From assembly GCA_018658715.1 (NCBI GenBank), contig JABHUQ010000099.1:1-64000 (forward strand): a stretch of 64,000 nucleotides of DNA. Reading direction: 5' to 3'. Every line of letters begins with the position of its first letter. The stretch's first letter is position 1. Under the pieces are notes generated by a model. It was not told the DNA's origin. It searched no databases and saw nothing but the letters and a program-made list of their open reading frames with translations. The DNA is from Fidelibacterota bacterium (lineage in GTDB: Bacteria; Fidelibacterota; Marinisomatia; Marinisomatales; UBA1611). The position numbers and the translations under genes were made by a program. This document shows, piece by piece, positions 12,969 to 28,380 of the stretch.

Positions 12969-13844
12969 TTAATCAAGAGAATTGAGCAAATCAAGTAGTC
13001 GTTCTAAATCGTCTTTAGAAAAATAGACTATTTCAATACTGCCACCCTTTTTTGCAGGTTTAACTTTTACTTTTGTTCCAAGAGAAGTAATCAATTGATT
13101 TTCAATGGCGCGAATGTGAGCGGGAGATTTTTTCTTTTTAGATTGAACTTTAATTTTTGTCCCAGATTCTTTTACAAGTGATTCTGCTGCTCGTACGCTC
13201 AAATTATCATTAAGAATTTTTTTCCAAATGCGATTCATAGATTGGTTTGTTTTTGCTTGGAGAATAGCTCTGCCATGGCCTCCTGAAATTTCACCATTCC
13301 GAAGACTTTTTCGAATGTCGGGTGGAAGTTTTAATAACCGTAATGCATTCGATATGGTTACTCGTTTTTTACCAACAGCTTTTGCAATCGCATTGTGGGA
13401 TAAATTATGTTGACTATTTAAAACGGCATATCCTTCTGCTTCTTCCAATGGATTTAAATCCTCCCGTTGAATATTTTCAATTAGAGCTAATTCCATGACT
13501 TCAGCGGCATCTGATACAGTAATGATATATGCAGGAATGGATTTTAATCTAAGTTTTTTTGCAGCTCGCCAACGACGTTCTCCTGCAATTAATTCATACC
13601 CATTATCTATACTTCTAACCGTAACTGGTGTAATGATTCCCTTTTCTTTGATCGATGCAATGAGTTCTTCTAACGCGCCTGATTCAAAATCTCGTCTTGG
13701 TTGATTTGGGTTTGAAAAAATATCTTTAACTGGGATTTGTGAAACTCCCGGTTTATTTTTTTTCTTTGGTGTTTGTTTTCTCTTTTGTTCGGGTTCAGGG
13801 CGAATAAGTGCTTCTAACCCTCTCCCTAATCGATTAACCGACAC
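12969..13844 (-). CDS. parB: Chromosome partitioning protein ParB
   Basis: A 291-residue ParB/Spo0J protein. The ParB N-terminal CTPase domain carries GERRWRAA (about residues 91-98) and the ENIQREDLNPLEEAEGY motif, followed by a helix-turn-helix (HNAIAKAVGKKRVTISNALRLLKLP) and a C-terminal dimerisation domain. It loads onto parS sites and works with ParA in origin segregation. No 16-base parS match was seen by eye in the window. It overlaps parA by 11 bases. Confidence 0.96.
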   Translation of the reverse strand: MSVNRLGRGLEALIRPEPEQKRKQTPKKKNKPGVSQIPVKDIFSNPNQPRRDFESGALEELIASIKEKGIITPVTVRSIDNGYELIAGERRWRAAKKLRLKSIPAYIITVSDAAEVMELALIENIQREDLNPLEEAEGYAVLNSQHNLSHNAIAKAVGKKRVTISNALRLLKLPPDIRKSLRNGEISGGHGRAILQAKTNQSMNRIWKKILNDNLSVRAAESLVKESGTKIKVQSKKKKSPAHIRAIENQLITSLGTKVKVKPAKKGGSIEIVYFSKDDLERLLDLLNSLD

Positions 13845-14598
13845 GATGTAATATTTCCTCTGTTAAATTCATATAATCCATTGCTCCAGTGGAACTAGCG
13901 TCATACAATAGGGCTGGTTTACCAAAACTCGGAGCTTCACTTAACCGGACATTACGATGGATCAATGTTTTAAACAATTTGTCTTTAAAATAACCCTGAA
14001 CTTCATCTGCAACTTGTTTGGACAAATTTAATCGACCATCATACATTGTCATAAGAACACCGGCAATTTCTAACTTTTTATTTAAATGGCGCTGAACAAG
14101 CCTTACGGTATTCAACAATTGCCCTAAGCCTTCTAATGCATAATATTCACTTTGAATTGGAATAATTATGGAATCTGATGCCGTTAATGCATTAATGGTT
14201 AAAAGGCCTAACGATGGTGGACAATCAATAATTATAAATTTATATTTCTTTTTAATGAACTTTAAACATTTCTGCAATTGATACTCTCGAGCCATGATAC
14301 TCACTAATTCAATTTCAGCTCCAACTAAATCATTCGTGGATGCGATTAAATCTAATTCAGGAAATTTTGTAGATGTGATTGCATCTTTAACTGGGACATC
14401 TTTTATAAGAACATCGTAGATAGAAGATGTGGGTGGGTCAGAAATGTCCATAACTCCTGTCGTCGCATTGGCTTGTGGGTCTAGATCAATTAAAAGCGTT
14501 TTTTCTTCAGTAACACCTAAACTTAAAGCCACATTAACAGCAGATGTGGTTTTTCCCACACCGCCTTTTTGGTTTGTGAATGAAATAATATGTCCCAT
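13834..14598 (-). CDS. parA: Chromosome partitioning ATPase ParA
   Basis: A ParA/Soj/MinD-type ATPase. The deviant Walker A KGGVGKTT lies near the N-terminus, Walker A' near LLIDLDPQANAT, and Walker B at IIIDCPPSLG. The longest reading frame begins at a GTG at 14628, but the ATG at 14598 gives the canonical MGHIISFTNQKGGVGKTT start, so I prefer 14598 (254 residues). It moves ParB-parS complexes and is the first gene of the transcription unit leading into bactofilin and the ATP synthase genes. Confidence 0.95.
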   Translation of the reverse strand: MGHIISFTNQKGGVGKTTSAVNVALSLGVTEEKTLLIDLDPQANATTGVMDISDPPTSSIYDVLIKDVPVKDAITSTKFPELDLIASTNDLVGAEIELVSIMAREYQLQKCLKFIKKKYKFIIIDCPPSLGLLTINALTASDSIIIPIQSEYYALEGLGQLLNTVRLVQRHLNKKLEIAGVLMTMYDGRLNLSKQVADEVQGYFKDKLFKTLIHRNVRLSEAPSFGKPALLYDASSTGAMDYMNLTEEILHRVG

Positions 14599-14794
14599 AA
14601 TATACTTTCCCGAAATATTTTCGGGCACGGAATTTATATCTAGTCAAGCCTTAAGGTTAAGGAATAAGATTATACTAATAAAGATTTAACATGTTTCGAA
14701 AAACTAGAAAATGTTTTGTCATCATATGGTTTAATAAAAATTCAACTTGTAAATTTCAATTGTATTTTTCCTATGAAATGAACTTAATTCTTGA
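14599..14794. promoter_or_regulatory. Divergent intergenic promoter region parA / tdh
   Basis: 196 AT-rich bases separate the divergent parA and tdh starts, so promoters for both transcription units must lie here. I see no convincing -35/-10 pair, operator palindrome or parS site. Confidence 0.4.
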
Positions 14795-27768: not shown

Positions 27769-27801
27769 AAAAAAAAAGGCTCTCCGGAGAGAGCCTTTTT
27801 T
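27769..27801 (-). terminator. Intrinsic terminator of the 76-residue repeat protein gene
   Basis: Perfect stem GGCTCTC / GAGAGCC with loop CGGA and long A/T tracts on both sides. It starts 14 bases after the stop of the gene at 27815. Confidence 0.92.
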
Positions 27802-27814
27802 CCGGTAAATGGAT

Positions 27815-28045
27815 TTATTTCTTACGTCCACGAGCCATTGGGGAGCGTGCAACATCGCCATTTTTATCAATAAAATAAAGGTAACCGCCTTCGCGTGTTA
27901 CACCAGCATCTGCAACTTTTTCTGCATTACCTCCGCCTTTTCCAGCACGGGCCATTTGAGAACGCCAAACATTGCCGTCTTTTCCGAGATAATATAAGTA
28001 TCCGCTTTCTTTGGATACACCTGTAGCTTTTACAGTTTCAGCCAT
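27815..28045 (-). CDS. Small basic protein with an internal duplication
   Basis: 76 residues made of two similar units, each with a GYLY(F/Y)...GNV/GDV...RSPMAR pattern: residues 15-33 (GYLYYLGKDGNVWRSQMAR) and residues 54-72 (GYLYFIDKNGDVARSPMAR), joined by a Gly/Lys-rich linker. Similar short GYLYFIDK-GDV-R-MARG proteins occur in other bacteria to my knowledge, without known function. There is no signal peptide. The gene has a strong GGAGG site six bases before the ATG, its own terminator and a promoter bracketed by palindromes, so it is a tightly defined, probably highly expressed single-gene unit. Confidence 0.85.
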   Translation of the reverse strand: MAETVKATGVSKESGYLYYLGKDGNVWRSQMARAGKGGGNAEKVADAGVTREGGYLYFIDKNGDVARSPMARGRKK

Positions 28046-28100
28046 TTAAGACCTCCATTTTTTTATTGGTTTGTGGTTAATAGAGAGAAAATTCTTAACC

Positions 28101-28111
28101 TCTCGACGAGA
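28101..28111 (-). promoter_or_regulatory. Operator-like palindrome TCTCGTCGAGA, downstream copy
   Basis: An inverted repeat TCTCG-N-CGAGA abutting the -10 element, so it would cover the transcription start. It is identical to the copy at 28148-28158. Confidence 0.6.
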
Positions 28112-28141
28112 AGTGTACGATATTCTGTCTGATAGAGTCAA
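28112..28141 (-). promoter_or_regulatory. Sigma70-like promoter of the 76-residue protein gene
   Basis: On the minus strand TTGACT (28141-28136) and TACACT (28117-28112) are spaced by 18 bases, about 70 bases upstream of the ATG. Operator-like palindromes lie directly against both ends of this promoter. Confidence 0.6.
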
Positions 28142-28147
28142 GTTTTT

Positions 28148-28170
28148 TCTCGACGAGACTCCGACGAGAG
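28148..28170 (-). promoter_or_regulatory. Operator-like palindromes upstream of -35
   Basis: An identical TCTCGTCGAGA at 28148-28158 and a partial third copy (CTCTCGTCGGA) at 28160-28170 lie upstream of the -35 element. Centre-to-centre spacing of the two perfect copies is 47 bases, and 12 for the adjacent pair. Confidence 0.6.
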
Positions 28171-28271: not shown

Positions 28272-28345
28272 GCCCCGGTAGCTCAGCTGGATAGAGCAAC
28301 AGCCTTCTAAGCTGTGGGTCACAGGTTCGAATCCTGTCCGGGGTA
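28272..28345 (+). tRNA. tRNA-Arg (anticodon TCT)
   Basis: A 74-base cloverleaf. The acceptor stem is GCCCCGG/CCGGGGT with a G-U first pair, the D arm GCTC...GAGC, the anticodon stem ACAGC/GCTGT with loop CTTCTAA (anticodon TCT), and the T arm ACAGG-TTCGAAT-CCTGT. The discriminator base is A and CCA is not encoded. It is divergent from the 76-residue protein gene. Confidence 0.96.
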
Positions 28346-28365
28346 CAAAACTCTAAATATTATTA

Positions 28366-28380
28366 ATCTCGTCGTGAGAT
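28366..28380. repeat. Fourth copy of the CGACGAGA element, inverted
   Basis: ATCTCGTCGTGAGAT lies 20 bases after the tRNA. It contains the core shared with the operator copies at 28101-28170, in the opposite orientation to two of them, and is itself an inverted repeat (ATCTC/GAGAT). Confidence 0.45.

Follow-up and report, generated by a model that had tools for sequence, protein, structure and literature searches.

Promoter architecture of the 76-residue protein gene

The window examined here, that is, the whole stretch of 64,000 nucleotides, belongs to a genome of Candidatus Neomarinimicrobiota (Marinimicrobia/SAR406), an abundant and almost uncultured marine phylum. On its minus strand lies a gene for a small protein of 76 residues (27815-28045), served by a TTGACT-N18-TACACT promoter with palindromic sequences in and around it. 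The features are as follows.

27770..27803, minus strand: intrinsic terminator hairpin of the 76-residue protein gene
27815..28045, minus strand: gene for the 76-residue two-repeat protein, outside known families
28052..28056, minus strand: Shine-Dalgarno sequence GGAGG, invariant across aligned leaders
28101..28111, no strand assigned: O4, exact palindrome TCTCG-A-CGAGA over the expected transcription start, abutting the 3' side of the -10 hexamer
28112..28117, minus strand: -10 hexamer TACACT, conserved in homologues
28124..28134, minus strand: O3 position, degenerate in the window (TATCAGACAGA, 4 mismatches)
28136..28141, minus strand: -35 hexamer TTGACT, conserved in homologues
28148..28158, no strand assigned: O2, exact palindrome TCTCG-A-CGAGA, 6 nt upstream of the -35 hexamer
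28159..28169, minus strand: O1, partial palindrome TCTCGTCGGAG, half-matching, abutting O2 in an 11-bp register

Read along the minus strand, the order is TCTCGTCGGAG-TCTCGTCGAGA-AAAAAC-TTGACT-N18-TACACT-TCTCGTCGAGA, followed by the leader, GGAGG and the ATG at 28045. The initial annotation had described two identical TCTCG-N-CGAGA palindromes bracketing a promoter of this form, with a third, partial copy beside the upstream one. Both palindromes were found, the partial copy was located next to O2, and the promoter hexamers turned out to be conserved in homologues. Since the gene is followed by a terminator of its own, the unit looks monocistronic, and the strong promoter and ribosome site suggest that its product is abundant. 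The 5' leader of the mRNA (28046-28100) contains a hairpin (GAGAG...CTCTC) and a CCACTACCAAA...GGAGG stretch, both conserved in family f1. Divergent from the gene, the region 28272-28377 holds a tRNA-Arg(TCT), and a one-mismatch palindrome, TCTCGTCGTGA, occurs at 28367, ~20 bp past the tRNA.

The protein is 100% identical to that of Candidatus Neomarinimicrobiota bacterium BS150m-G42, an identity that assigns the host to this phylum. Of 36 good genomes of the order, 35 encode it; across the phylum 169 of 245 genomes do, other classes included. More than 30 columns were invariant among 21 diverse homologues. It consists of two repeats of ~27 residues, with 15 of 27 positions identical between residues 9-35 and 48-74 when counted by eye. 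No Pfam or NCBIfam family scored above its curated cut-off. The predicted structure was all-beta with six strands (pLDDT 87.6, pTM 0.73), and a fold search of this model against the PDB gave no match (best E 0.63). Plasmid and phage records contained no homologue; distant homologues of 36-56% identity, with a single or double repeat, were present on five viral contigs of IMG/VR (L397-L401). The gene often lies within ~5-17 kb of parAB, as it does in the window (parA 13834-14628), in which the ParB site TGTTTCACGTGAAACA was not found.

Conservation of the palindromes across the phylum

When 80 distinct homologous promoters were compared, near-palindromes were centred at four fixed positions, counted from the first base of the -35 hexamer: -23/-22, corresponding to O1 (35 promoters), -12, corresponding to O2 (48), +12/13, corresponding to O3 (21), and +35/36, corresponding to O4 (40). 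The steps between centres were 11, 24-25 and 22-23 bp, and the unit was 11-15 bp long with the consensus TTTCTCGWCGAGAAA and W in the centre. The O3 position, degenerate in the window, carried a good site in many relatives (for example L028, L035, L109 and L412). The register of the sites was kept while the flanking bases varied, indicating that constraint acts on the sites themselves, although the genomes are related and these promoter counts do not represent independent events.

The array persisted in other classes of the phylum, and beyond the order its form changed but its place did not. Genomes of family f20 kept the spacer site, and in most cases also the +1 site 22 bp away, and no other sites remained. 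In f27 and f28 genomes two sites lay upstream of the -35 hexamer, f29 genomes had a half-site near it, and in f16 the spacer element had drifted to AGAGGAGAA. The operators were lost in genus g11 of the window's own family (L012, L016 and L022), yet the protein was still 89-91% identical. Non-conservation in related genomes had been named at the outset as a result that would speak against the operators; footprinting revealed that the palindromes are conserved. At the 76-residue protein promoter, then, conserved palindromes overlap the core promoter, which is the pattern of a repressor-operator arrangement.

Frequency of the site and chance expectation

In the window's own genome (2.46 Mb in 115 contigs) we found six exact sites, compared with one for a reversed control pattern. 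Two were at the 76-residue protein promoter, which was the only pair in the genome; the others were one upstream of nrdJ, two in tRNA-adjacent terminator hairpins and one in a relA/spoT-type ORF. One-mismatch sites in this genome were nearly all coding, at a frequency about that of the control. When the 170-bp promoter was dinucleotide-shuffled 20,000 times, one exact site arose in 13 shuffles and two in none. In the set of 80 homologous promoters, sites with no more than one mismatch numbered 47, against 0.45 expected from shuffles.

About half of the exact sites elsewhere genome-wide were terminator hairpins or coding chance matches, and the tRNA-adjacent ones were rejected as targets because they are intrinsic terminator hairpins. 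A different reading would have the palindromes work as RNA, in a hairpin of the 5' leader, or would take them for hairpins that are terminator-like or arose by chance. O4 does lie within the leader, tRNA-adjacent terminators carry some genomic copies as their loops, and family f1 conserves another hairpin in the leader. However, the conservation of O1-O3, which precede the expected start, is just as strong, and the register of the sites is fixed relative to the -35 and -10 hexamers, which makes such a reading highly improbable.

Two further observations concern copies of the palindrome near other elements. At G076:C1:56066-57990 and at L234, duplicated 3' halves of tRNA-Arg(TCT) adjoin the 76-residue protein gene, and each half is preceded by TTTCTC(C/G)TCGAGAAG or by a sequence close to it; tRNA-Arg(TCT) appears to be an integration site of mobile elements whose ends carry a similar palindrome. 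In two f8 genomes (L263 and L264) an exact TCTCGTCGAGA was present ~100 bp upstream of the same ORF of ~480 residues, possibly a transposase when judged by eye.

Other genes preceded by the box

The 76-residue protein gene had initially been taken as the sole gene served. This holds for the promoter itself and fails for the site, because the site also precedes nrdJ, both in this genome and in further families, and parA in two families. The own-genome site lies on contig C40, ~171 nt upstream of nrdJ, which encodes an adenosylcobalamin-dependent class II ribonucleotide reductase (RNR). At nrdJ loci of f1, f8 and f10 a site occurred at ~-159 to -184 from the ATG, and a pattern search found exact sites before nrdJ in f2, f8 and f10 genomes. 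These sites lie ~24 nt upstream of a TTGTCT-N17-TATATT-like promoter, often beside TTGTGGATAAC, which by eye resembles a DnaA box. Sites with a position weight matrix (PWM) score above 11 were present in 11 of 30 nrdJ loci; in one of these, L219, the site is placed differently.

For parA, a near-perfect site was found 84-151 nt upstream of the start in all nine f5/f7 loci examined; none was found in f1, f8 or f10, and about a third of parA loci carried one overall. The upstream sites of nrdJ and parA lie at about -60. The best of them scored 20-22.8, and because the maximum anywhere in a fully scanned relative of 1.02 Mb was 18.9, such scores cannot be ascribed to chance. An exact site upstream of dnaN was seen in G089 (L232), with no comparably strong upstream site in 30 other dnaN loci, and dnaN was rejected as a general target.

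A whole-genome PWM scan of G076 revealed no large regulon. The targets found, namely the 76-residue protein gene, nrdJ and parA, indicate that the regulon is small and has a replication flavour, and judging from these sequences the box most likely marks a small replication-related regulon. Apart from the box, nrdJ leaders (for example L198, L197 and L205) shared a conserved, hairpin-like GCCAACC-N-GCGATTTATCGC-TTTCATTTGTCAGCC; this is a possible RNA element, with no match in Rfam.

Proposed mode of action

The comparative data strongly support the palindromes as functional operators of a putative DNA-binding regulator at the 76-residue protein promoter. By their placement in the sequence, the spacer site and the one covering the start occupy predicted repressor positions, and the f20 layout is predicted repressor geometry. 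Looping or blocking by a repressor had both been suggested for this promoter. The distance between O2 and O4 is 47 bp, ~4.5 turns and out of phase, so a simple loop is not favoured, and intermediate sites in relatives at ~22-25 bp steps fit side-by-side occlusion of the promoter better than looping. The conserved sites and their spacer and +1 positions favour blocking, and looping is not supported.

The positions of some sites could also be those of an activator or of an array with dual function. O1 and O2 at about -59 and -48, and the nrdJ and parA sites at ~-60, coincide with class-I/II activator positions. However, the 76-residue protein promoter is near consensus and would not need an activator, and sites in the spacer and at +1 would block the polymerase; f20 genomes keep only those. 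We regard activation, or a dual function, as unlikely.

The best reading is that a putative repressor occludes the 76-residue protein promoter and co-regulates DNA-replication functions. According to this model, the palindromes would be the operators of one sequence-specific regulator found throughout Neomarinimicrobiota, and its dimers would occupy the 11-15-bp sites, perhaps cooperatively. Up to four such sites lie at fixed positions in rough helical phase, a pair immediately before the -35 hexamer, a third between the -35 and -10 hexamers and a fourth over the expected transcription start. Binding side by side, the dimers would cover the strong promoter and repress it until a signal releases the regulator. 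At nrdJ, and at parA in some families, one upstream site may let the same protein act, positively or negatively. Since these genes share the site, the signal probably relates to DNA replication or to the demand for dNTPs. Operators, shared regulator and replication-linked control together form the explanation that we prefer and consider likely.

Candidate regulators

The initial annotation knew of no regulator with this site. NrdR is the usual RNR repressor, with palindromic boxes upstream of RNR genes that often overlap the polymerase site (PMC9110341). Palindromic boxes precede RNR genes in both systems, but the box sequence here is unrelated and the targets include the 76-residue protein gene and parA. 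NrdR was rejected, as a search of 81 genomes found its gene in none, whereas 9 of 14 control genomes were positive.

A search of full-text literature pairing the phylum names with regulation terms found no regulon study. The operator and its small regulon, of a known general kind and well supported, are apparently undescribed. In this phylum without NrdR, a box conserved across classes is common to the gene of the ultra-conserved 76-residue protein, the gene of a class II RNR and parA; such a distribution points to a regulator linked to replication that is so far undescribed. The box also opens this regulator, and the function of the 76-residue protein, to direct in vitro tests.

In the streamlined G076 genome we recognised Fur, Lrp/AsnC, TetR, HxlR, Xre and MraZ proteins by eye, and homologues of Fur, Lrp and MraZ were present in all or nearly all of 34 genomes, g11 included; because they are near universal, their presence does not discriminate between candidates. 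MraZ resembles the regulator sought in being a widespread small regulator of a core cell-cycle locus, but the G076 mraZ promoter has GTGG(G/T)-type repeats and lacks TCTCGWCGAGA.

The symmetry of the box provides leads of two types. TTTCTCG-W-CGAGAAA is formally a 7-1-7 box, a 15-bp inverted repeat with a single central base as in the Fur family (Fur, PerR and Zur), and Lrp/AsnC proteins use 15-bp palindromes in phased arrays. However, the box, to our knowledge, differs in sequence from the known boxes of Fur and Lrp. No strong site occurred near fur or lrp genes in 20 loci (10 of them lrp), and the targets here are not metal genes. A regulator from one of these families, which would be a more specific form of the preferred explanation and not an alternative to it, is possible but tentative.

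It is also conceivable that the palindromes are bound by the 76-residue protein, a new type of small all-beta two-repeat regulator that would then repress its own gene and also act on nrdJ and parA. Its gene has the only multi-site array found, which is typical of autoregulators, and is linked to parAB in many genomes. The protein occurs phylum-wide and is small and basic, with invariant Lys/Arg in both repeats. Of the other candidates, the fur and lrp genes lack a strong site and the G076 mraZ promoter scores low. However, the protein has no recognisable DNA-binding domain and its fold search was empty. The loss of the operators in g11 and their drift to AGAGGAGAA in f16, with the protein highly conserved, are better explained by a separate, more variable regulator. 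We therefore hold self-regulation to be rather unlikely. Its fuller form, a phylum-wide autoregulated transcription factor of undescribed fold that would replace NrdR and coordinate dNTP synthesis with chromosome partition, appears quite doubtful.

A separate repressor of LexA type would share with the proposed regulator operators that overlap promoters and links to replication. LexA was rejected, since the lexA promoters of these genomes carry different boxes, either a direct repeat, ACTTACGAG-N-AACTTACGAG, or a GTACGC type. In most Neomarinimicrobiota lexA loci collected here (L173-L190; the own-genome copy is L187, G000:C28:126969) a conserved direct-repeat box, TACTTACGAG-N-AACTTACGAGT, with a period of ~11 bp, lies upstream of lexA itself, unlike palindromic LexA boxes. 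The lexA genes of f5, f7 and f12 have another box, GTACGC...TGTAC.
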